A DNA stretch of 39,175 bases from Treponema sp. (GTDB taxonomy: Bacteria > Spirochaetota > Spirochaetia > Treponematales > Treponemataceae). The notes beneath the pieces are model-generated. The model made no database searches, had not been told where the DNA came from, and saw nothing but the letters and a program-made list of their open reading frames with translations. The stretch is taken from contig NZ_JAILGZ010000053.1 in assembly GCF_024696245.1 (NCBI RefSeq), positions 1-39,175 of the forward strand, read 5' to 3'. Position numbers and translations under genes: made by a program. Below, in pieces: positions 236 through 19,380 of the stretch (the first letter of the stretch is position 1; each line of letters begins with the position of its first letter).

Positions 236-970
236 TCAACTCTTCACATAAGCATCACAAACAGGACCTGCTTCTCCTTTCATTTTTACTTCTCCATGGT
301 CAAGCCACATTGCGTTTTTGCAAAGGCGTTTAACCTGGTCTATGGAGTGGGATACAAAAAGGAGGGTAGTGCCGTTTGATAAAAGTTCTTGCATTTTCTT
401 TTCACATTTTTCCTTAAATTTAAAATCACCAACAGCCAGTACTTCATCCACAATAAGAATATCAGGCTTTACTAAAGTTGCAATAGCAAAACCAAGTTTG
501 GCTCTCATACCAGAAGAAAAGTTTTTAATAGGAACATTTAAAAACTTATCTACTTCAGAAAATTCTACAATTTCATCATAGTGTTCCTTTATAAATTCTT
601 CACTGTACCCAAGGACTGCTCCGTTTAAGAAAATGTTTTCTTTTGCAGTAAGTCTTCCGTCAAAACCTGCTCCAAGTTCAATAAGAGGAGAAATGCGACC
701 GTTAATTTGAATTGAACCTTTGTAAGGTTTAAGGATTCCACAGGCAGCTTTTAAAAATGTAGACTTACCGGCTCCATTGCGTCCAATAATTCCCCAGGAT
801 TCACCTGCTTTAACTTCAAGATTTACACCCTGTAACGCCATAAATTCCTGAAACATCAGCTGGCGTTTAAGGATTTTAATTACAAATTCCTTAAGGTTAT
901 CTACGTTTTCAGAAGCAAGGTTATATCTTATATGAAGGTCTTCAATTTTAAGTTTTATATTGTTTTCCAT
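236..970 (-). CDS. wzt: Polysaccharide ABC exporter, ATP-binding subunit (Wzt-like)
   Basis: A 244-aa cytoplasmic ATPase that powers export of a lipid-linked surface polysaccharide with the permease encoded just upstream. Walker A is GRNGAGKST (residues 63-71), the ABC signature is FSSGM (151-155), Walker B is ILIVDE (171-176) and the switch histidine is H208. The roughly 45-residue N-terminal extension before the nucleotide-binding core, with the IELGAGFDGRLTAKENI segment, is typical of the Wzt/TagH/RfbE branch. The protein ends right after the nucleotide-binding domain, so it lacks the C-terminal carbohydrate-binding domain of long Wzt proteins such as those of E. coli O8/O9a. It follows the permease by 14 nt and is surely cotranscribed. 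The substrate cannot be read from the sequence. Confidence 0.9.
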   Translation of the reverse strand: MENNIKLKIEDLHIRYNLASENVDNLKEFVIKILKRQLMFQEFMALQGVNLEVKAGESWGIIGRNGAGKSTFLKAACGILKPYKGSIQINGRISPLIELGAGFDGRLTAKENIFLNGAVLGYSEEFIKEHYDEIVEFSEVDKFLNVPIKNFSSGMRAKLGFAIATLVKPDILIVDEVLAVGDFKFKEKCEKKMQELLSNGTTLLFVSHSIDQVKRLCKNAMWLDHGEVKMKGEAGPVCDAYVKS

Positions 971-984
971 TTTTTCCGCCTGAA

Positions 985-1773
985 TTAAATGTAAAGAATG
1001 AATTTATCCTGATTTTTCTTAAAGAAAATCATACCTATTAGCAGTGCCACTATTCCAATTGTAAAGCCTTTAAGCATTGTAGTTGGATTTAACATGCGGT
1101 TTAAATACATAAGGTCACGGAACTGTTCTATAAACATATACATAGGATTAAATCTTGTTACATATTTTTGAAGGTAAGGAGGCAGCATGGTAAGAGGATA
1201 AAAAATAGGGGTAATGTAAAGCCATATTGTGATAATTACCTTCCAAATATACTGAATATCCCTAAAGAAAACATTTGCCTGGGCTAAAAATAATCCTACA
1301 CCAAGACTAAATATGTAAACTTCAACAGCAGGAACAAAAAAGAGAAGGTTATAAAAAGAAAAGTTCGCATGAGTTGCCAGCATTACAATAAGAAGGGCCC
1401 CTAGAGAAAAACAGAATTCAGAAATCAGCTGGGTTGTAACAGCAGAGACTACAAATATGTATTTAGGAACATAGATTTTTTTTATTAAGGCACCGCTGTC
1501 TACAATTGAATGAATAGACATAGTAGCACACATACTGAAAAAGTTAAAAAGAATCTGTCCGCAAAGGTAATACAATGGAAAGTTTTTTATATCCCTTTTA
1601 AACATATAAGAAAAAACCACAGTAAGAACAATCATAATCATAAGAGGGTTAAGTATGCTCCAGATATAGCCCAGCATACTGCGCCTGTATTTAAGTTTAA
1701 TATCGCGGCTTATAAGCTGTTTTAAAAGTCCCTTATATTTAATGAATGTTTTTGTGGAATTTATAATGTTCAT
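985..1773 (-). CDS. wzm: Polysaccharide ABC exporter, membrane subunit (Wzm-like, ABC-2 family)
   Basis: A 262-aa inner-membrane permease of the ABC-2 family. The N-terminus carries the family hallmark LKYRRSMLGYIWSILNPLMIMIVL (residues about 26-49), in which an amphipathic cytoplasmic helix leads into the first membrane span. About six hydrophobic segments follow. It pairs with the downstream Wzt-like ATPase to flip or export a polysaccharide across the inner membrane. The length matches the family. The start codon has no Shine-Dalgarno, and a good promoter sits immediately upstream, so the mRNA may be leaderless. Confidence 0.9.
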   Translation of the reverse strand: MNIINSTKTFIKYKGLLKQLISRDIKLKYRRSMLGYIWSILNPLMIMIVLTVVFSYMFKRDIKNFPLYYLCGQILFNFFSMCATMSIHSIVDSGALIKKIYVPKYIFVVSAVTTQLISEFCFSLGALLIVMLATHANFSFYNLLFFVPAVEVYIFSLGVGLFLAQANVFFRDIQYIWKVIITIWLYITPIFYPLTMLPPYLQKYVTRFNPMYMFIEQFRDLMYLNRMLNPTTMLKGFTIGIVALLIGMIFFKKNQDKFILYI

Positions 1774-1781
1774 AATAATCC

Positions 1782-1810
1782 ATTATAATGAATAAAACTT
1801 AAAATGTCAT
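1782..1810 (-). promoter_or_regulatory. Sigma70-like promoter of wzm-wzt
   Basis: On the minus strand ATGACA (1810-1805), a 17-nt spacer and TATAAT (1787-1782). The expected start of transcription is about 1775, only 2-3 nt before the ATG at 1773, which predicts a leaderless transcript. Confidence 0.6.
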
Positions 1811-1866
1811 TTAATTACTTTGGGCAATTTTAAGACTCATTTTTTTTTCTTTTTACTCCGATATAA

Positions 1867-2592
1867 CCACTTTTTACAATTTCTACAAGCGGTACTGTTG
1901 CAAGCGGAACTGGAGTAACTGTTACAAATAATGACAGTCATGACGGAACTGTTCTTTACTATAGTTTTGGTACAGAACTTACAGCAGATAATTATTCTAC
2001 TGCAGGAACACTGGCTACACTTACAAACGGTGCATTTACTTACTCTGTAACAGCAGCCGGAACCCTTTATGCAATTGCTGTTGTAACAAATAATGGTACA
2101 ACTTACTGCTCTGATGTAGTTAGTGCTGAATATACACTTGCAGCTAGTAATGAAGATGTAATTGATTGTAGTTCAAGTAATGATTATACAGCCCTTTTCC
2201 CTACATCAAATACTGGTGGGGTTACAACTACAGTAACAACAGATTATTCAACTCTTGTATTTGCCCCAGGTACAGCTCAGTCAACATGTTTTGCTGATTC
2301 AAATATCAGAATGTATGCCAGTGGTAAGATAACAATTACTCCTTCAAGTGCTAAAACCATTACAGGTTTAACAATTACTGGGACACAAAATCTTACAACA
2401 ATTTACACAGCTACTGTAACAACAAGTGATGATACAGAAACATGGACTGCAAGTACTGCTCTTAGTGGTGATGATGCATCTTCTGTAACCTGGAGTGGTA
2501 CAGCTACTTCTTCTGCACCAATATATTTAATTTATAATGCAACTAAAGGCCATGCCAGAATCACATCCATCACCATTACCTACGCAGATTAA
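1867..2592 (+). pseudogene. 5'-truncated fragment of a secreted repeat/adhesin-like protein
   Basis: The frame is open for 241 codons from just after an in-frame TAA at 1864-1866 to the TAA at 2590-2592. No ATG, GTG or TTG occurs in frame before the ATG at 2311, which lies deep inside the coding similarity and has no ribosome-binding site. The first part (TISTSGTVASGTGVTVTNN… to …CSDVVSAEYTL) resembles the CHB_HEX_C_1 / chitobiase C-terminal-like beta-sandwich found in large exported proteins of gut bacteria. The second is a Thr/Ser-rich beta domain ending RITSITITYAD, typical of the extreme C-terminus of secreted proteins. This looks like the C-terminal third of a larger exported protein whose promoter, signal peptide and N-terminus are missing. 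It could be a decaying remnant or a silent donor cassette. The 93-aa ORF from 2311 is not a credible gene alone. Confidence 0.7.
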
Positions 2593-2637
2593 TTTCTGCC
2601 GCAGTTCCCTTACAGGGGACTTGCTCAGGTAAAAAGT

Positions 2638-2676
2638 AAAGGCAGTCTCCTTTAACTAAAAGGGTACGGCCTTTTT
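2638..2676 (+). terminator. Intrinsic terminator after the adhesin-like fragment
   Basis: An imperfect hairpin (outer AAAGGC...GCCTTT, inner CCTTT...AAAGG) is followed by TTTTTAT. On the other strand the hairpin is followed by CTTTTTACC, so it may also stop transcripts from the gene ending at 2764. The fragment has kept its terminator although it lost its 5' end. Confidence 0.6.
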
Positions 2677-2679
2677 ATA

Positions 2680-2746
2680 TTGAGGGTTTATTACAAAACC
2701 CTCAAAACGGCGAAGTCAAGGCTTTAAGCGTGAGCGTGCCTTGACT
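2680..2746. repeat. Two adjacent inverted repeats in intergenic DNA
   Basis: The first is a perfect 10-bp pair, TTGAGGGTTT (2680-2689) and AAACCCTCAA (2696-2705), with a 6-nt loop. The second is a perfect 9-bp pair, AGTCAAGGC (2714-2722) and GCCTTGACT (2738-2746), whose loop contains GCGTGAGCG. Neither is followed by a T-run, so they are poor terminators. They look like a REP-type or other dispersed intergenic element. Confidence 0.55.
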
Positions 2747-2763
2747 CGACGTATTCCTTAACT

Positions 2764-4269
2764 TTATATTCCCAGTCGTTTTGCCCAGGACTGCCAGCTT
2801 ACAAGGTCAGCTTGTTTTTCTTTATAGCTTTTTATTTGCTTTTGATTTAGTGCAATTTTAAATACAGCCTTAATGATTTCAAAAGGAAGTCTGACTATAT
2901 AAAATAAATCACAGCAGCATTTGCTTTTATGGCTGCGTAAAAAGCCATTAAGTTCTTCTCCGTCAATATTGTTAAGATGTTCTGCTCCCTTTAAAAAATC
3001 CCTGAAGGCAAGTTTTACAAAATAAACGGCCTTTTTTCTTTTAAGGGTATTAAAGGTCAGATGAACTGCATAAGTAAGGAAAGTTTTAAAAGCCAGGCAT
3101 TTTTCTTCATGAATGGCATTGCTTGTAAGACGGTTTCTGATACTGTAATAGTAAAGGTAAGGGGAGTCTTTTCCGGCAAATTCCTGATGCCAGACAGAGA
3201 TTCCGTTTACCATAATAAATTTGTTTTTGAATTTCCTGATTCCAAATTCAATATCATCCCCCTTAATAAAATAAGGCATAGGAAGCTGATCTTTATCAAT
3301 ACATTCAACAGGATAGCAGCAGTACCACCAGGCATTGAAATCCATTCTTACAGCCTTAAGGTTTTTCATAAGGACTGTCTGTTTACATAAGTTTGCATTC
3401 TTTCCCCAGGCTTTTAAGCGTAAAAAATCATAGCAGGAGCCCCGTTCGTGCTGAATACAGGGGTCATTAAGCCTTAACATGGCACCACCTAAAGCCCAGG
3501 TCTTATATTCATCCTTTAAGACTGATAAAAATGAATGATTTCTTGTAAAAAGGCCCCGGTTAAAAGCTATGTCATCATCCATAAGAATAATATGGCTGAA
3601 ATTTTCCCTGTTTTTTAATACTTCCATTATTCCTCTGGTAAAACCACCGGCTCCACCAAGGTTTTTATTAGGGAATATTTTTGCAAAAGGAAAATCCTGC
3701 TGCCTTAAGTCCAGGGTCTGGCCGTTATCTATTACAAAAACTTTAAGGCTGCCGTCCTTAACTTTTTCCGTGCAGGCAAGTTCCTTAAGATTGCTGATAA
3801 TAAAGCTTTCCCTGCGGTAAGTTGTAATTACAGCTGCCATTTTAACATCTGTGCTTTTATATTCATCCCTGCAAAACCAGTAGCCCTGGCAGAAATCACT
3901 GGTAATTTCGTTTTTTCTAAAAGAATCATCCTTTTTGTAAAATTCAGGGTAGAGTATGCTCTCTTCTTCAAAACCTTCAATATTGCAGGTAAAAATAAGC
4001 TCCTGGCCTGGATTACATTCTTTTTCTTCTATTATTGTTTCTATTATTTTATTTTTAAGAAGGCTGGCTTTTACAAGTAAAACACGGCAGCTGCATTTGG
4101 TGGTAAGGTTTAAGGAAACTTCTGAAATCTTAGTGTACTTATTGTATATTCCTGCGGCAAAGCTGTTAAAATAGCTGGCATAAGATACTTTATCCCCCAG
4201 ATTCTTAAAATACAGGTGTTTTTTTCTGTTAAAATCGTTTTCCGGATAGGATATGTCAAACAATTTCAT
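2764..4269 (-). CDS. Galactofuranosyltransferase, GlfT2-like (GT2 family)
   Basis: A 501-aa cytoplasmic or membrane-peripheral glycosyltransferase predicted to add galactofuranose from UDP-Galf to a growing glycan. Residues 1-140 form a beta-rich N-terminal region like that of mycobacterial GlfT2. The GT-A core follows: AAVITTYRR (145-153), NLGGAGGF (203-210), the metal-binding DDD (231-233), a tryptophan pair in FNAWW (311-315), the GDDIEFG acceptor/base motif (337-343) and WHQEF with H361. This arrangement of DDD, DDxEF and WH matches GlfT2 rather than ordinary GT2 enzymes. UDP-galactopyranose mutase is encoded at 10778-11899, so the donor can be made locally. The start is preceded by GAAGG and a promoter about 60 nt upstream. 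Confidence 0.8.
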   Translation of the reverse strand: MKLFDISYPENDFNRKKHLYFKNLGDKVSYASYFNSFAAGIYNKYTKISEVSLNLTTKCSCRVLLVKASLLKNKIIETIIEEKECNPGQELIFTCNIEGFEEESILYPEFYKKDDSFRKNEITSDFCQGYWFCRDEYKSTDVKMAAVITTYRRESFIISNLKELACTEKVKDGSLKVFVIDNGQTLDLRQQDFPFAKIFPNKNLGGAGGFTRGIMEVLKNRENFSHIILMDDDIAFNRGLFTRNHSFLSVLKDEYKTWALGGAMLRLNDPCIQHERGSCYDFLRLKAWGKNANLCKQTVLMKNLKAVRMDFNAWWYCCYPVECIDKDQLPMPYFIKGDDIEFGIRKFKNKFIMVNGISVWHQEFAGKDSPYLYYYSIRNRLTSNAIHEEKCLAFKTFLTYAVHLTFNTLKRKKAVYFVKLAFRDFLKGAEHLNNIDGEELNGFLRSHKSKCCCDLFYIVRLPFEIIKAVFKIALNQKQIKSYKEKQADLVSWQSWAKRLGI

Positions 4270-4327
4270 TATATGTTACCTTCACTAAATTTTTAAAATA
4301 TTCCATAATAAGCCCAGAAGTATATGT

Positions 4328-4356
4328 ATAATAATACATCTATCGATATAAACCAA
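4328..4356 (-). promoter_or_regulatory. Promoter of the GlfT2-like gene
   Basis: On the minus strand TTGGTT (4356-4351), a 17-nt spacer and TATTAT (4333-4328). It would give a leader of about 50 nt containing the GAAGG Shine-Dalgarno. The 184-nt gap 4270-4453 is divergent and also holds the promoter of the plus-strand operon. Confidence 0.5.
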
Positions 4357-4419
4357 CATTAAAAATTTGAAATTTTCTTTGAAAATTTTCAAGAAAATGC
4401 AAATTTCTTTAAAAAAAGT

Positions 4420-4447
4420 TTGTTTTTTTTAGTTTATGGGTTAAAAT
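4420..4447 (+). promoter_or_regulatory. Promoter of the GT2 / LolCE-like operon, probably leaderless
   Basis: TTGTTT (4420-4425), a 16-nt spacer beginning with a T-tract, and TAAAAT (4442-4447). The ATG is at 4454, so transcription would start at or next to the start codon. No Shine-Dalgarno precedes this ATG. Confidence 0.5.
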
Positions 4448-4453
4448 ATTAGT

Positions 4454-5290
4454 ATGAGTAGTGAGTCAGATCAGATAGTATACAAGGATAATCTTGTATC
4501 AATTATTATGCCCTGCTATAACGGAAGCAGGTTCCTTGAAGAAACTATAAATTCAGTACTTTCTCAGAGTTATGACCAGTGGGAGCTTCTGGTTGTAGAT
4601 GATGGTTCTACGGATTTATCCCTGGATATCGTAAAAAAATTCATGAAAAAGGACGACAGAATCACCTATATTACTCAGGAAAACTCAGGCTGTGCTTCTT
4701 CAAGAAACATGGCTATTAAGGTATCTTCCGGCCGTTATATCGCCTTCCTTGACTCAGATGACGTGTGGCATAAGGATTACCTTTCTATAATGCTTAATAA
4801 AATTCAGCAGGATAAATGTTTAAGCCACGTTGTTTTTTATTCCGGCTACAGAAGAATGAATGCAGACCTTACTTTTCCTTTACTGGAAGATTTTTCATGT
4901 CCTGGAGAAAGGGATTATAAAAAGCTGCTTATGCATTGTCCTGTTTTTCCGTCAGCTGCCATTGTTGACAGATTCAGGCTTAAAAATAATGTATTCTTCC
5001 GTGAATCCCTTATGAACCTCAGGGATGACTATGTTTTCTTCCTTGATATTCTTCGTCAGGGACTTAAATGTGTTGGTTTTGATGATATTCTTGTTGATTA
5101 CAGAATGCGCAATGATTCAGTAACCGGCGGTGCAAAAAGAAAGATGATCAGGCCTCAGTGGAATGTTTATCATAATGTTCTCCGCCTGAGTGTTTTTAAA
5201 AGTGCATGGTATTTATGTACCTGGGCTATTAACGGAATTAAAAAGTACCATAAAAAACCTTTGCTTGTAACATCAGCTTTATTTCTTTAA
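4454..5290 (+). CDS. GT2-family glycosyltransferase (TuaG/WfgS-like)
   Basis: A 278-aa GT-A fold glycosyltransferase that transfers a sugar from a nucleotide donor, probably onto a surface glycan or glycolipid precursor. Motifs in order: VSIIMPCYNGSRFLEE (12-27), the donor-binding VVDDGSTD (47-54), the conserved NSGCASSRNMAI region (77-88) and the metal-binding FLDSDDVW (97-104). No membrane spans are evident except a weakly hydrophobic C-terminus. It is the first gene of an operon with two ABC permeases, a LolA-like protein and a beta-barrel protein. The next gene starts 9 nt downstream. Sugar specificity cannot be read from the sequence. Its position suggests that the transported lipid or protein is glycosylated. 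Confidence 0.85.
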   Translation: MSSESDQIVYKDNLVSIIMPCYNGSRFLEETINSVLSQSYDQWELLVVDDGSTDLSLDIVKKFMKKDDRITYITQENSGCASSRNMAIKVSSGRYIAFLDSDDVWHKDYLSIMLNKIQQDKCLSHVVFYSGYRRMNADLTFPLLEDFSCPGERDYKKLLMHCPVFPSAAIVDRFRLKNNVFFRESLMNLRDDYVFFLDILRQGLKCVGFDDILVDYRMRNDSVTGGAKRKMIRPQWNVYHNVLRLSVFKSAWYLCTWAINGIKKYHKKPLLVTSALFL

Positions 5291-5299
5291 AATAAGCCA

Positions 5300-6691
5300 A
5301 TGATATTTTATCTGGCTTTTAAAAATATAATTTCAAGAAAATCTTCTCTGGTCATAATAGCTTTTATTTCCCTGGCTGCAATGCTTTTTGCTTTTTCCAA
5401 TGCAGTTTTTGACAGTACTGAAAACGGCGTTCAGGAAACCTTCTGTTCAAGTTTTACAGGAGACCTGATTATCCGCCCGGTAAGTAATGTTCCCTTAAGT
5501 CTTTTTGGAGACGAGACACCTGTTACCGGCATGCTTACAAAAATCAACAGTATTCTTCCTTATCATCAGGTTAGTCAGGCTGTTTCTTCCTGTCCTTATG
5601 TATCGGCTTCAGTTCCTCAGGTTTCTTCTACAGCTATTCTGGAAAATGGAAAAAAAAGGCTGCCTGTTTTTTTATTCGGTACAGATTTTCCTGATTATTC
5701 CAGAATCATGTCTTCCATAAAAATTATTGAGGGAAGGGGTTTTGATTTTGATGAAGAAGCCTGTATGATTCAGTCTTCCATGGCAAAAGAAGCTGGTATT
5801 AAAGCCGGCAGTAAAGTTCAGTTTATGGTTGCAGACGGCATCTCTTTTAGAATCAGAAGTCTTACTGTCAGCGGAATCTACGAATATGCCTTTTCCCATT
5901 CTTCTTTAAATAAAATTGTTATTGCTTCTCCTCAGGTGGTAAGGGAACTGGCCGGAACAGAAAATACAGTCAGTCTTGATTATGATTTTTCTGACAGTGT
6001 TGAATCCCTTCTTGATTCAGATTTAAACGAAGATGATTTTTTCTTTAGCGAAGATCTTGATGATTTTGATATTGAAATTACAGAAAGCCAGACTCAGGAT
6101 TATTCTTCTCAGGGCTCCTGGAATTTTATTATCTGCAAATCAGATGACGCAAGAAAGGCAGTTTATGATTTAAACTCATCATTTAAGAATAATGGATGGC
6201 CTGTAGAAGCTGTTCTCTGGCGTGATGCTGCAGGTAGTTCAGCCCTTTATATTTACTGGCTCAGGATAATTTTTAATGCCGGAATTCTTATAATACTGGC
6301 TTCGGGATTTATTGTTGTTAATAACACCCTGGTTATTCATGTTATTGACAGGACAAGGGAAATCGGAACTTTAAGAGCCATGGGAGCTTCTTCATTTTTT
6401 GTTTCTGCTGAATGTCTTATGGAAAATCTTATTCTTTCACTGGTATCTGCCTTTACCGGAATAATATTTTCCTTTATTTTATGTGCCCTTGTAAATAAAG
6501 TTGGTTTTCAGCTGCACAATGATTTTTTAATTCAGCTTTTTGGTTCTGAACCCCTTTGTTTTTCCATCAGGGTTCCTAACATAATTTCCGTATTTATACT
6601 TTGTCTTTTACTGGCTTTTATAGGCTGGATTCTTCCTGTCAGAAATGCACTTTCTGTAGAACCTGTAAAGGCAATTCAGGGGGCTAAATAA
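5300..6691 (+). CDS. FtsX/LolCE-like ABC permease (first of a pair)
   Basis: A 463-aa inner-membrane permease. One N-terminal span (about 17-35) is followed by a large periplasmic domain (about 36-320) and three C-terminal spans (about 322-455), the MacB/LolC/LolE topology. DRTREIGTLRAMGAS (about 352-366), between the second and third spans, is the FtsX-family coupling helix that contacts the ATPase. Such pairs usually extract lipoproteins from, or move substrates out of, the outer leaflet of the inner membrane. An odd acidic stretch sits in the periplasmic domain (about 227-267, Asp/Glu-dense). Its TAA overlaps the next ATG by one base (TAATG), so the permeases are translationally coupled. 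The likely ATPase is encoded at 10053-10781 on the other strand. Confidence 0.85.
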   Translation: MIFYLAFKNIISRKSSLVIIAFISLAAMLFAFSNAVFDSTENGVQETFCSSFTGDLIIRPVSNVPLSLFGDETPVTGMLTKINSILPYHQVSQAVSSCPYVSASVPQVSSTAILENGKKRLPVFLFGTDFPDYSRIMSSIKIIEGRGFDFDEEACMIQSSMAKEAGIKAGSKVQFMVADGISFRIRSLTVSGIYEYAFSHSSLNKIVIASPQVVRELAGTENTVSLDYDFSDSVESLLDSDLNEDDFFFSEDLDDFDIEITESQTQDYSSQGSWNFIICKSDDARKAVYDLNSSFKNNGWPVEAVLWRDAAGSSALYIYWLRIIFNAGILIILASGFIVVNNTLVIHVIDRTREIGTLRAMGASSFFVSAECLMENLILSLVSAFTGIIFSFILCALVNKVGFQLHNDFLIQLFGSEPLCFSIRVPNIISVFILCLLLAFIGWILPVRNALSVEPVKAIQGAK

Positions 6692-7974
6692 TGTTTATTT
6701 TAAAGCTTGCTCTCAGGTCTTTTATTTACCGCAGAAAACAATATTTTTCTTTATTTCTGGTTTGTGCTGCAGGCTGCGGTATTTCTTTATTTTTTCTTTC
6801 CGTAACAAAGGGAATGATGGCTTCTTTAAGTGACAAGGCCAGAATTTATTATGGGGGAGACTACCAGATTATTGGCGGTACTAATGAACTTGGCTGTTAC
6901 AATACTACAGATTTTATAAAGGGACTTGAGGATATTTTTCCAGAAGGAAGTGTTATAAGTCCCCGCTTTGATTACGATGCAGCAAGGGCTTCCTTTTACT
7001 TTGAAGGTAATTCCGCAAGACAGAGGGTTGTAAAGGGAGTAGATTTTAAAAAAGAAAAGCGTCTTCTTTCTTCCATCAATCTTCTTGAAGGTTCAATAGA
7101 AAATGTGGGCAGGGGTGGTATTCTTTTAAGCAGCCCTGTTGCTTCCATGCTTTGCGCCTCAGAGGGAGATAAAATCACTTTTATGGCACCGGCTTTTGGT
7201 GGTGGAGTCAATACAATTGATTTATATGTAAGGGGTATTTTTGAAGATTCCAGTCTGTTTGGAATGTACACTTCTTATATGGACCTTGATGATTTAAGAC
7301 AGCTTCTGTGTACAGGGCATGATTATTCCAACCGTATCTGTCTTGACCTGAACGGGGCTAATATCAGTAAAGAGGACACTAAAAAGTATCACAGTCAGCT
7401 TAGTAAAAGAATAAAAATGTTTCCTCTTGTAGATGATAAACAGATTTTTTACGACCATCTTCTTTCCGGAAAATTTAAGGAAGATAATTTTGCCCTTGTT
7501 CCATTACAGGCAAACCTTCAGGACGTAAAGATTCTTATAGTTGCAATGAAGGCTATAACATCCTTTATCATTGGCATTTTAGTCCTGATTATTATAGTAG
7601 GAATAGGAAGTACCTTTAAGATTTTAGTAATGAAGCGTATAAACGAAATAGGCATTTATATGTCTTTAGGAATGAATAGGGCTCATATTATGCTTACAAT
7701 TCTTACAGAAGCAGTGATTCTTGTTCTTGCAGGTTCCTTTGCAGGAATTCTTTTATCCCTTCTTTTAAGCCGCTTTATTTCTATTTTTAACTTTTCATTT
7801 ATTCCGGCTTTTGATATTTTCTTAAAGGGTGGTGCTATAATTCCTTTGCCTGATATGACTAATATCTGTATCATATGTCTGTCAGTTTTGTTTTTTACTA
7901 TAGCTGCTGTTACTGGTTCCGTAAGAAAATCCATCAGAATTATGCCCTGCAAGGCTCTGGCAGTAACAGAATAG
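6691..7974 (+). CDS. FtsX/LolCE-like ABC permease (second of a pair)
   Basis: A 427-aa permease of the same FtsX/LolCE topology. The N-terminal span lies at about 18-35, a periplasmic domain extends to about 285, and three spans fill 290-420. The cytoplasmic coupling segment MKRINEIGIYMSLGMNR (about 314-330) fits the family. It is probably the second half of a heterodimeric transporter, like LolC with LolE. A LolA-like periplasmic protein gene starts 9 nt after it with an AGGAGA ribosome-binding site. Whether the substrate is lipoprotein, glycolipid or something else is not visible. Confidence 0.85.
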   Translation: MFILKLALRSFIYRRKQYFSLFLVCAAGCGISLFFLSVTKGMMASLSDKARIYYGGDYQIIGGTNELGCYNTTDFIKGLEDIFPEGSVISPRFDYDAARASFYFEGNSARQRVVKGVDFKKEKRLLSSINLLEGSIENVGRGGILLSSPVASMLCASEGDKITFMAPAFGGGVNTIDLYVRGIFEDSSLFGMYTSYMDLDDLRQLLCTGHDYSNRICLDLNGANISKEDTKKYHSQLSKRIKMFPLVDDKQIFYDHLLSGKFKEDNFALVPLQANLQDVKILIVAMKAITSFIIGILVLIIIVGIGSTFKILVMKRINEIGIYMSLGMNRAHIMLTILTEAVILVLAGSFAGILLSLLLSRFISIFNFSFIPAFDIFLKGGAIIPLPDMTNICIICLSVLFFTIAAVTGSVRKSIRIMPCKALAVTE

Positions 7975-7983
7975 GAGATTAAA

Positions 7984-8766
7984 ATGAAAAAGTTATTTTT
8001 ATTAATAACAGCATGTCTTATGACAGCTTCTATAAGTGCCCTTTCTGCAAATGAAGAGTTACTTAAAAAAGCTCAGGACAATACTTCTTTTTATGATACG
8101 GATTTTTATGCCCAGTATTCCATTGTTCAGGATAAGCCGGGAGAGGGCAGGTCTGTAACGGAAGCCCAGATGTTCCGCCGTGATAAAAGCCGTTGCTGGA
8201 CAATTCTTGTAACAGCTCCTTCTTCAGAAAAGGGTAAGGGCTACCTGCAGCTTGATGAAACAATCTGGTTTTATGATCCTGCAGACAGACGTTTTACTTT
8301 TTCGTCTGCCCGGGATAAGTTTCAGAATACCAATGCAAACACTTCTGACTTTGGTCCCCAGAATTATTATACAGATTATAAAATTATAAGTGACAGCCAG
8401 GTAAAGCTTGGAAAATACAACTGTATTCTTTTTGAACTTGAAGCAAAAAAAGAGACAGCAGATTATCCTCTTGTAAAACTCTGGGTAAGCCAGGATGATG
8501 GTCTTGTAAGAAAAAAGGAAGATTATTCTCTTTCCGGAAAAAAAATCCGTACAACTGTAATTCCTTCTTATCAGAAAGTTACTTCTGCAGGTTATGAACG
8601 CCGTATCCCTGTAAGCATGATAATTCAGGACAATCTTAAAGGTAAAAAAATTGCCGGTAAAATGGAATACGAAAAAACTCTTGTTTCCATAAGCAATGTT
8701 TCCCTTAAAAAAGTTGAAGATGCAGTTTATACCAAGCCATACTTAGAAATGGCAGGGGCCAGGTAA
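7984..8766 (+). CDS. Periplasmic outer-membrane lipoprotein-sorting protein (LolA-like)
   Basis: A 260-aa protein with a Sec signal peptide (about 1-22, ending SALSA). The mature part has the order of features of the LolA-like family annotated as outer membrane lipoprotein-sorting protein (PF17131 type). These are a central KGKGYLQLDETIWFYDPADR segment (about 78-97), an SDFGPQNYYTDYK segment (about 120-132) and a later KLWVSQDDGLVRKKE strand pair. No lipobox is visible. Family members form a half-barrel that carries acyl chains across the periplasm. Its place after the two permeases and before a beta-barrel protein suggests a dedicated carrier for this transporter. Confidence 0.75.
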   Translation: MKKLFLLITACLMTASISALSANEELLKKAQDNTSFYDTDFYAQYSIVQDKPGEGRSVTEAQMFRRDKSRCWTILVTAPSSEKGKGYLQLDETIWFYDPADRRFTFSSARDKFQNTNANTSDFGPQNYYTDYKIISDSQVKLGKYNCILFELEAKKETADYPLVKLWVSQDDGLVRKKEDYSLSGKKIRTTVIPSYQKVTSAGYERRIPVSMIIQDNLKGKKIAGKMEYEKTLVSISNVSLKKVEDAVYTKPYLEMAGAR

Positions 8767-16921: not shown

Positions 16922-17785
16922 CTAATCTTTTACAGAAGAAAATTTCTGACGGTATTCGGAAGGTGTCATTCCCACAAATTTTTTAAAGCTGCGGGAAAAA
17001 TAATTTGAATCATTAAAGCCGCACTGATAAGCGATTGTTGTTATGTCAGTGCTGCTTTCTGCAAGGGCAGTTGTTGCATAAAGCATACGGAGCTTGTTCT
17101 GATAAACAAAAGGGGAGTAGCCTGTAAGATGCTTAAAGGCCCTTAATACAGAACTTTCTGACATGGCTCCGATTTCCATTAAGTCCTGCATGCTTATATT
17201 CCTCTGGTAGTTTTTTTCCATATATTGAACAAGTATACTTGCACTGCTTTTTTTATTAACTGCAGGAAAGTCCGGATTCTCCTTAGCCCTTAATATATAA
17301 ATGATAAGCTCTAATAAAAGGCAGTTAATTTTTATTTGTACAAGAGGCAGGTCCTGGGAAAATTCATTTTGAATTGAAGCAATTATTTCTTTAACTGCCA
17401 GCAGCTGTATTTTATTAAGATGTATTCTGCTTACAGAGGCCTTTTTACTTCTGGAATTAAAAGTGAAAAGTTCAGAATAAGAAGGAATCTTTGTTATCTC
17501 TTCATTTAAGTCATAAAAAAAATCCGGCCTTATCATTATATTCATAAGTTCCAGATCCTTTACTTCCGTATAGGAATGAAACTGGCCCGGATGAACACAA
17601 AGAAGGTCTCCTTCTGACAGTTCAAAGCTTTCTTTCTGGTCTGTGTGAATGCCTTTTCCTCTATAAATAACTACAAGTTCAAAAAAATCATGATTGTGCA
17701 TTGGAAAAGGAGGCTGGGATTTTCTATATTCAAGATGGCAGCTTGCAGGTTCAGTCCAGAACTGCCTGGATAAAAGTTCTTTCAT
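16922..17785 (-). CDS. AraC-family transcriptional regulator with N-terminal cupin
   Basis: A 287-aa cytosolic regulator. The N-terminal half is a cupin sensor, with HNHDFFELVVIYRGKG (about 30-45) and EGDLLCVHPGQFHSY (about 62-76). The C-terminal roughly 100 residues form the double helix-turn-helix, with the second motif GFNDSNYFSRSFKKFVGMTPSEYR near the end. It is divergent from a sugar kinase and rhamnulose-1-phosphate aldolase, so it probably senses rhamnose or a related sugar (RhaS/RhaR-like role, inferred). Its start has no Shine-Dalgarno. Its promoter ends about 12 nt before the ATG and overlaps an inverted repeat that could be its own operator. Confidence 0.85.
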   Translation of the reverse strand: MKELLSRQFWTEPASCHLEYRKSQPPFPMHNHDFFELVVIYRGKGIHTDQKESFELSEGDLLCVHPGQFHSYTEVKDLELMNIMIRPDFFYDLNEEITKIPSYSELFTFNSRSKKASVSRIHLNKIQLLAVKEIIASIQNEFSQDLPLVQIKINCLLLELIIYILRAKENPDFPAVNKKSSASILVQYMEKNYQRNISMQDLMEIGAMSESSVLRAFKHLTGYSPFVYQNKLRMLYATTALAESSTDITTIAYQCGFNDSNYFSRSFKKFVGMTPSEYRQKFSSVKD

Positions 17786-17788
17786 TCT

Positions 17789-17825
17789 TTGACGGAATTA
17801 TGCTAATAAAAGCCATTGCCGTCAA
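17789..17825. promoter_or_regulatory. Inverted-repeat candidate operator and araC-type promoter
   Basis: TTGACGG (17789-17795) and CCGTCAA (17819-17825) form a perfect 7-bp inverted repeat with centres 30 bp apart, about three helical turns. Read on the minus strand, the right arm is also the -35 (TTGACG, 17825-17820) of a promoter with a 17-nt spacer and CATAAT (17802-17797), starting near 17790 inside the left arm. For the divergent kinase gene, a TAAACT -10-like element (17847-17852) lies 7 nt before the ATG. It has no good -35, but the right arm lies at about -35. That layout fits an activator-dependent kinase promoter and autoregulated regulator. Confidence 0.5.
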
Positions 17826-17859
17826 GGTCTTTTTTTATGGCGGGACTAAACTAATAATT

Positions 17860-19380
17860 ATGAAGTATGCTGTCTGCGTAATTGATATTGGCATGACCAA
17901 TAAAAAGATTTCCATTTATGACCAGTCCCTTAATCAGATTGAATCTGCCTATCAGAATTTTGAAGGCAAAAAGGTTTCCTGCGAAAAAGATAATAAAACT
18001 ATTCTCTGCCATGATATTGAAGGCATGAAGGAATGGTTTACTAAATGTATTTCTGACTTTGCAAAAAAATACCCGGTAAAAGCCATCAGCGTAACAACTC
18101 ACGGTGCAACTTTTGTATGTACAGATGACCAGGGCAAACAGACACTTCCATGTGTTTTTTATACGGAAGACCCAGGAGAAGATTTTCAAAAAGAATTTTA
18201 TTCCCTTTGCGGCAGTCCCCGGGATTTACAGAAGGAATGTCAGACACCACTTTTATCTTCCATGATTAACATGGCAAAAGGAATATTCTTTGCAAAAAGG
18301 TATTTTCCTCAAGGTTTTGCTGCTACAAAAAAAATCATAAGCTATCCCCAGTTCTGGACTTATTTTTTTACCGGAAACTTCTGTGCAGAAAGGACTTTTC
18401 TTGCCTGTCACACCTATCTCTGGAATCAGAATAAAGACAGCTATTCTTCAGTAGCTGATAAACTTGGCATCAGACAGCTGCTGTCCGATAACATAGCTGA
18501 TACAATCAGTTTTCAGGGTACAATAACAGAAGATTTTGCTAAAAAAACAGGACTTTCTCAGGATGTCCAGGTTACAGCCGGCATACACGATTCAAATGCA
18601 TCCCTTTTACCATATCTTGCCAAAGAAAATGATGACTTTATCCTTAACTCCACCGGAACCTGGTGCGTAAGCATGCATCCTTCAGCTGATGAAGATTTTA
18701 CTCAGGAAGACATAGGTAAGGTTGTATTTTTTAACAGAAGTGCCCTTAATCAGAAAGTAAAGACTTCAATATTCCTTGGGGGAATGGAATTTGATTCCTA
18801 TGTTAAGCTTTACCAGAAGTTAAGTGGTGACAGTGATTTTCCCCTTACAGACAAAGACACAATTAAAAAGCTTTTATTCCAAAAAGACCTTTTTATTCTG
18901 CCGGAAATAGTAAGGGGATCAGGACAGTTCCCTCAATCAAAGGCGGGCCTTCTTTACAAGGGTAATTTTTATCCTTATGAAGAGCTTGAAAATACTCCAC
19001 AGATTAAGGAAATTATCTGCAATAAAAAAATCTTTATTGCCGCTGTTATAATTTCCCTTGTAATTCAGAGCCAGGTTGCCTTTAACAGAGCCGGCCTTAA
19101 AAACAATACTAAGATTTTTACGGAAGGTGGATTCAGAAAAAATAAGATGTATAATCTTCTTCTGTCTTCTGTATTAAAAAATAACCCCTGTTTTACTACA
19201 GATATAAGTGAAGCAACATCCTTCGGTTCTGCCATGACAGCTGTTATGGCTATGGAAGGAAAAAAATGCAGGGATCTGGAATCAGCTATCAGCATAGAAT
19301 ATAATGAAATTCCAAAAGAAGATTTCAGTGACTATGATGAATATAAAAAACTTTGGCTAAATGCTACTCAAGGAGAATAA
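17860..19380 (+). CDS. FGGY-family carbohydrate kinase, probable rhamnulokinase
   Basis: A 506-aa cytoplasmic sugar kinase. The phosphate-binding loop is VIDIGMTNKK (7-16), followed by SVTTHGATF and the catalytic-base segment GIHDSNASL with D244. ILNSTGTWCVS and a C-terminal TEGGFRKNKMYNLLLSS nucleotide-binding segment complete the two-domain fold. It is the atypical FGGY form seen in Bacteroidetes and spirochetes rather than the classic RhaB with DLGASSGR. The rhamnulose-1-phosphate aldolase gene follows within 2 nt, so L-rhamnulose is the likely substrate. L-fuculose is the alternative. The open frame runs upstream to 17701, but that part overlaps the regulator gene on the other strand and does not match the family, so I use the ATG just before the DIG motif. 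Confidence 0.8.
   Translation: MKYAVCVIDIGMTNKKISIYDQSLNQIESAYQNFEGKKVSCEKDNKTILCHDIEGMKEWFTKCISDFAKKYPVKAISVTTHGATFVCTDDQGKQTLPCVFYTEDPGEDFQKEFYSLCGSPRDLQKECQTPLLSSMINMAKGIFFAKRYFPQGFAATKKIISYPQFWTYFFTGNFCAERTFLACHTYLWNQNKDSYSSVADKLGIRQLLSDNIADTISFQGTITEDFAKKTGLSQDVQVTAGIHDSNASLLPYLAKENDDFILNSTGTWCVSMHPSADEDFTQEDIGKVVFFNRSALNQKVKTSIFLGGMEFDSYVKLYQKLSGDSDFPLTDKDTIKKLLFQKDLFILPEIVRGSGQFPQSKAGLLYKGNFYPYEELENTPQIKEIICNKKIFIAAVIISLVIQSQVAFNRAGLKNNTKIFTEGGFRKNKMYNLLLSSVLKNNPCFTTDISEATSFGSAMTAVMAMEGKKCRDLESAISIEYNEIPKEDFSDYDEYKKLWLNATQGE

Follow-up and report, generated by a model that had tools for sequence, protein, structure and literature searches.

Genomic context of the start-less frame

We analysed a stretch of Treponema sp. 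DNA of 39,175 nucleotides (hereafter the window), which is the entire contig C116 of a draft assembly (2.66 Mb in 163 contigs, 98.98% complete, 4.83% estimated contamination). About 1.9 kb from the left contig end, a reading frame without a start codon is located between a polysaccharide export gene pair, which we take to be wzm and wzt, and a convergent glycosyltransferase gene. The features of this region are as follows, with strand in brackets where one applies:

236..970 (-): putative wzt, ABC transporter ATPase that pairs with wzm in export (PF00005)
985..1773 (-): putative wzm, ABC-2 type polysaccharide export permease (PF01061 and relatives)
1774..1866: A+T-rich junction (GC 0.20) 5' of wzm, containing a promoter-like site (1810-1782, -) that could serve this gene (promoter scan, composition)
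1864..1866 (+): in-frame TAA immediately 5' of the start-less frame (translation)
1867..2592 (+): frame lacking a start codon (241 codons and a stop), predicted C-terminal tail of a lipoprotein (translation, codon choice, end-to-end match to residues 703-925 of a relative on contig C12)
1867..2142 (+): first domain, a predicted Ig/FN3-like beta sandwich of the kind that Pfam names CHB_HEX_C_1 in relatives (model of residues 1-95)
2149..2589 (+): second domain, a predicted C-terminal beta module that is also found within Endonuclease_NS lipoproteins of another genome of the genus, G109 (sequence and profile searches)
2638..2674: imperfect hairpin with a T tract (-13.9 kcal/mol), which folds on the - strand as well (RNA folding)
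2679..2755 (+): 77-bp repeat made up of two hairpins, with 14 copies genome-wide including this one (genome search, folding)
2764..4269 (-): GT2, a galactofuranosyltransferase-like glycosyltransferase convergent with the fragment (Glft2_N above, Glycos_transf_2 below the cut-off)

Translation of 1864-2592 gives a stop-free run of 241 sense codons (1867-2589, + strand) closed by TAA at 2590-2592, and the list of open reading frames contains no in-frame ATG, GTG or TTG upstream of 2311. A random frame of this length would be free of stops with a chance of ~1e-7, calculated from the base composition of either the fragment or the window. The synonymous codon score of the frame is +0.165, compared with 0.081-0.208 for 34 window genes scored by leave-one-out; these reference genes were picked by eye, leaving aside antisense ORFs, 17701-19380 and the open-ended last ORF. 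The other five frames at 1867-2589 score from -0.47 to +0.03 and carry 8-26 stops each. The GC3 of the fragment (0.145) is below that of all 34 window genes (0.23-0.39) and well below that of the relative on C12 (0.27); the window codon usage would give 27% for the same amino acids, and none of 2000 draws was as low as the observed value. The fragment is thus protein-like but, given its low GC3, not quite typical for the host, a deviation that could be caused by either foreign origin or relaxed selection.

The number of promoter-like sites in 1500-2900 is near chance (6 against 4.7 expected), and the one weak site on the + strand (9 of 12 bases) ends at 1880, within the frame. The first-pass annotation of this DNA, which had described a clean 241-codon frame that follows a stop, lacks a start codon and a promoter and is protein-like in composition, is therefore borne out, with the addition that GC3 is atypically low. 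Its further statement that an intrinsic terminator is retained holds in part: RNA folding yields the imperfect hairpin with a T tract at 2638-2674, but a consensus terminator scan around the frame found none, with 0.9 expected by chance. At the left contig end (1-183), short open pieces in two frames resemble the end of a gene, which is possibly frameshifted.

Homology and domain structure of the fragment

The fragment has no match in Pfam (at E up to 1) or NCBIfam, and it does not reach the curated cut-offs of CHB_HEX_C_1 and Fn3_assoc, above which its relatives in C12 and in another genome of the genus, G207, do score. Within its own genome, residues 1-241 align to residues 703-925 of a 925-aa lipoprotein encoded on C12 (87 of 264 columns identical, 33%; E 4e-12), with E 2.9e-11 in an unfiltered tblastn search. 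Since only this terminal part is matched, ~700 N-terminal residues are missing from the fragment. The C12 relative was missed by single-protein searches and by a scan of the contig collection, and was seen with the G207 protein as a query (E 4.5e-105), with profiles (E 6.5e-15 for that of the second domain) and with unfiltered tblastn. The G207 protein is a lipoprotein of 993 aa with the same two domains at its C-terminus. Besides the fragment itself, the single-protein search of the own genome returned only a lipoprotein frame on C29 (649 aa), which matches the first domain alone (41% over 67 residues, E 4.3e-4); profile and full-length protein searches gave weak matches, besides C12, on C29, C44 and C18. 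Searching the own genome with the G207 protein revealed no remnant of the N-terminal part, the one match besides C12 being 45 residues long (E 0.06) within an 824-aa frame on C44.

With the fragment alone as a query, 16 of 200 genomes of the genus, its own included, give a match at E up to 0.5; the best one outside the own genome has E 7.6e-7, and no uncut close source gene was found in this set. Following the weak matches, we identified proteins that have related domains in G109 and G207. A profile built from the tails of the fragment and its C12 and G207 relatives detects matching sequences in 7 of 196 genomes of the genus (E up to 1e-5), again including the own one (G000); almost the entire profile is covered in G000, G207 and a third genome, G001, and about one domain in the other four. 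A sequence search of the PDB returned nothing useful, and a plasmid collection contained no match to the fragment. Our literature search found no paper on this lipoprotein family or on the 77-bp repeat, which does not disprove that such papers exist.

Structure prediction reached a pLDDT of 51 without an alignment and 75.6 with an alignment of seven sequences, two of which, the fragment not among them, have CHB_HEX_C_1 matches. The latter model predicts two beta domains, the first beginning at residue 3. Comparison with PDB structures yielded, for the most part, tied matches of the Ig/FN3-like kind for residues 1-95 (best Z 8.0) and barely covered the second domain; because of these ties, no function was read from them.

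By homology, the fragment is the C-terminal two-domain tail of a predicted surface lipoprotein. The start codon and secretion signal typical of the family are absent from it. The relatives in C12, G207 and G001 share both C-terminal domains and their order with the fragment but differ from it in being full length (925, 993 and 883 aa, respectively), in carrying a lipoprotein-like N-terminus (judged by eye) and in lying at a nuclease locus. The initial view of a truncated C-terminal piece of a secreted beta-domain protein thus agrees with the end-to-end C12 match and with a gene order that differs from that of a genome of the same genus (see below), and the whole-genome search that it called for uncovered one full-length gene with the same C-terminus, that on C12.

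The full-length relatives belong to an extracellular nuclease locus

On C12, the gene order is a 5'-nucleotidase (PF02872, PF00149), the 925-aa lipoprotein (Fn3_assoc, CHB_HEX_C_1) and two lipoproteins with the Endonuclease_NS domain (PF01223). The same order of nucleotidase, 993-aa lipoprotein and Endonuclease_NS protein is observed in G207, where the nucleotidase was named from its 74% DNA identity to that of C12. Because the C12 relative adjoins a 5'-nucleotidase and Endonuclease_NS lipoproteins, the parent gene of the fragment would come from a locus of extracellular nucleic acid degradation. The term adhesin, used initially for the presumed expressed gene, finds no support, the neighbours of the C12 relative being nucleases and a nucleotidase. 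We infer that these lipoproteins may bind nucleic acid or assist the nucleases; stretches that look OB-fold-like were noticed in them on reading the sequences by eye.

In G001, the DNA flanking the corresponding locus is 97.2% identical to C12 on the nucleotidase side (1908 bases) and 89.1% identical on the nuclease side (1679 bases), compared with 68.8% DNA identity between window bases 4391-8575 and the same genome. Between these flanks, the 883-aa relative is encoded in the opposite orientation and is itself flanked by genes with PDDEXK_2 and Transposase_31 matches. The loci compared were L059, 5883-13145 (C12 of G000), and L159, 1-9707 (G001); the lipoprotein in the latter is an inverted, diverged relative that stands in place of the C12 one. 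Judging by these identities, the nuclease locus appears to have been exchanged between the two species and reshuffled.

Rearranged gene order at the polysaccharide export genes

In G001, a glycosyltransferase gene is followed by divergent wzm-wzt-GT2. A relative of GT2 occurs in 20 of 80 wzm loci from other genomes, after wzt in 19 of them. The window departs from this order: GT2 is found beyond wzm instead of wzt, and the fragment separates wzm from GT2. On gene order, the fragment evidently is at a rearranged point, where wzm-wzt are parted from their usual partner glycosyltransferase.

The window wzm and wzt products share 34% and 49% identity with their G001 counterparts, and up to 56% and 64% with those of other loci, the best of which are mostly from gut Clostridia (many of them presumably Lachnospiraceae, going by record titles and general knowledge). 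A Treponema locus, L080, has a wzm product with 55% identity over 211 residues, three other spirochaete loci reach 46-48%, and a wzm search at E 1e-60 detected only the own genome among 98 genus genomes. This pattern of similarity, closer to other gut bacteria than to G001, suggests that the wzm-wzt pair of the window was replaced by transfer.

At E up to 1e-3, relatives of the fragment are absent from all 80 wzm loci. No convincing match to the junction (1771-1900) turned up elsewhere: among the matches listed, for which at most 4 candidates were scored per genome, the best outside one covers ~28 bases (E 2e-5) and the longest, in G180, has 70% identity over ~107 A+T-rich bases (E 6e-4). In the own genome, the same 130 bases gave one second match of 20 bases (E 0.046) among the best 4 of 28 candidates. 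The window contains no tRNA gene that could mark an integration site.

The 3' flank: a hairpin and a 77-bp repeat

The hairpin region at 2638-2674 could also terminate transcription of the convergent GT2 gene, whose end lies at 2764, so that retention of the hairpin would need no function of the fragment. The 77-bp repeat starts just behind this hairpin. Its other copies in the genome are on C73, C43, C74, C25, C75, C18 (two copies), C62, C158, C99, C70, C15 and C58 (L015-L027). In 11 of the 14 copies, that of the window included, the repeat begins within ~3 bases of a T-rich run that follows foldable sequence (the run is interrupted in L024); the three variant copies (L025-L027) lack such a preceding run. 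At E up to 0.001, the repeat is matched in 113 of 196 genomes of the genus, and a clear T run precedes three of the seven copies inspected in other genomes (L144-L150). The repeat looks like a mobile or amplified element set at intrinsic terminators. No Rfam family matches the window at the gathering threshold, or positions 1500-4500 at E up to 1.

The 77-bp repeat at first resembled an attC site, and the arrangement of a gene followed by a repeated hairpin-forming element is reminiscent of the chromosomal integron cassettes of Treponema, for which a criterion of at least two attC sites within 10 kb has been used (PMC3607928). In contrast to such arrays, a search of the 39-kb window at up to 3 mismatches yields a single copy of the repeat, and its copies in the genome are single and scattered, mostly after ordinary genes. 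An integron cassette was rejected on these grounds.

Comparison with the C12 relative and the silent cassette question

The first-pass annotation had also proposed that the fragment is a silent cassette for antigenic variation and suggested looking for gene conversion tracts. Such a cassette would recombine into an expressed lipoprotein gene and vary antigens or ligands, much as the donor cassettes of TprK in Treponema pallidum, which likewise are silent coding stretches distant from the expressed gene. Several observations are compatible with it: the frame is start-less, undamaged and bounded by domain limits; the genome has one full-length relative; and the relatives look mosaic, the lipoprotein gene of G001 being inverted between outer flanks that are 89-97% identical to C12. 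The best evidence available for conversion is the sole near-identical stretch between the two genes, at window positions 2050-2081, where 30 of 32 bases equal C12. A match of this quality was attained in 1 of 1000 synonymous shuffles (0 of 60 in a smaller run), and at up to 3 mismatches its 23-base core is confined, within the own genome, to the fragment and the C12 gene. However, this stretch encodes a motif, AGTLYAIAV, that is shared by the fragment, C12 and G001 and is AGTLYAIAA in G080, whose gene matches the stretch at 30 of 33 bases; because of this near-sharing, the stretch would be better explained by conservation of the motif than by conversion.

Past this one conserved motif, no likely conversion tract was found between the fragment and C12. 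Their nucleotide identity is 51% over 207 aligned codons, and the same codon is used for 41 of 81 identical residues, against 34 expected for independent choice from both codon usages. Neither is there a donor repertoire, C12 being the only other gene in the genome with this tail apart from the weak matches on C29, C44 and C18, and the repeats around the frame are short and imperfect. The TprK system comprises 53 donor cassettes and one expression site (PMC10063172), against a single fragment and a single diverged relative here. The silent donor cassette was therefore rejected as highly improbable: the genome has one relative with the tail, its DNA identity is 51%, and the conversion tract is not convincing. 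A related possibility, which we regard as very unlikely, is that the fragment serves as a spare C-terminal two-domain module for a fast-shuffling lipoprotein of an extracellular nuclease locus, with modules moved by rare recombination and not by frequent gene conversion. The locus would be exchanged among related species, as the 97% identity of the nucleotidase flank in G001 suggests, compared with 69% for window bases 4391-8575.

Origin of the fragment

The explanation that we favour, with a probability of roughly three in four, is that the fragment is a 5'-truncated gene remnant (pseudogene) left by rearrangement. Originally, a mosaic surface lipoprotein gene of the extracellular nuclease locus family would have stood here. 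The polysaccharide export region would then have been rearranged, its export genes being replaced and moved so that the present wzm-wzt pair landed beside the lipoprotein gene, which in the process would have been deprived of its promoter, its signal peptide and its N-terminal domains. Left over would be the two C-terminal beta domains with their stop codon, the terminator-like hairpin and the repeat behind it. If the hairpin region also acts as a terminator for the convergent GT2 gene, this would suffice for its retention. The frame, its homology, the neighbours of the relative and the altered gene order are established; that a rearrangement cut the gene, and in which order the events occurred, is what we deduce from them. 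The tail is probably silent, that is neither translated nor needed. Of the two options offered by the first-pass annotation, recent truncation or a silent cassette, the former is thus favoured by the tail homology and the altered gene order, and the latter is disfavoured by the single relative and its 51% identity.

That the frame is undamaged says little in favour of a function, because it has few codons that a single mutation could turn into a stop: of all point mutations (transitions weighted 2), just 2.5% would create one, and 0.18 nonsense mutations are expected per 1% divergence. At 5% divergence, the probability of no nonsense mutation is 0.40, so an intact frame needs no selection if the truncation is recent; with indels at 0.1 per substitution, the probability of an undamaged frame drops to 0.01, which means that either the truncation is young or the frame is selected. 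An undamaged frame would therefore be unsurprising in a young remnant and surprising in an old one. Truncated pseudogenes of this type occur at rearrangement borders in bacterial genomes, and the fragment resembles them as a C-terminal remnant that has a stop codon and a terminator-like hairpin, lacks a promoter, a start codon and a secretion signal, and lies beside a changed gene order. It differs from them in that its frame is still undamaged and its cut is deduced from diverged relatives rather than an uncut ortholog. Besides the estimate with indels, several points speak against a remnant: i) in the model, the frame opens just before a complete domain and its first strand, although a random cut could have fallen anywhere; ii) the low GC3 is not explained by truncation; iii) the cut is not seen directly by comparison, the best match outside the own genome among 200 genus genomes having E 7.6e-7; and iv) the own genome yielded no N-terminal remnant with the G207 query.

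Other origins have to be weighed against a remnant left by rearrangement. An assembly or binning artefact, in which sequence upstream of wzm has been wrongly fused to the interior of an intact lipoprotein gene that in reality continues upstream, is unlikely: it would be in line with a draft of 163 contigs and its estimated contamination, with the nearness of the contig start and with a frame GC3 that differs from the other genes of the contig, but false joins usually require a repeat, the junction has only one short second match in the own genome (the 20 bases at E 0.046, among the best 4 of 28 candidates), and the 3' flank carries the genome's own 77-bp repeat after a T run, like ten other copies. 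It is quite unlikely that the fragment arrived already cut, as passenger DNA with wzm-wzt from a donor. The unusually low GC3 and the similarity of wzm-wzt to loci of other gut bacteria, which is greater than to the one same-genus genome compared, would fit such an arrival, although none of the 80 wzm loci harbours a relative of the fragment, the repeat 3' of it is widespread in the genus, and the wzm of the Treponema locus L080 makes transfer from outside the spirochaetes less than certain. A short gene with a function of its own, read from a non-standard start or else from the ATG at 2311 (93 aa), would agree with the intact frame and the host-like synonymous choice; we consider it the most doubtful, since a start at 2311 would split the C-terminal module mid-way and promoter-like sites are no more frequent than expected by chance.

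Conclusions

The fragment in itself is probably another gene remnant and of minor importance. As a more general point, an undamaged start-less frame is only a weak indication of a silent cassette where few codons are one step from a stop. The mosaic lipoprotein of a secreted-nuclease locus and the repeat associated with terminators may each merit separate study.
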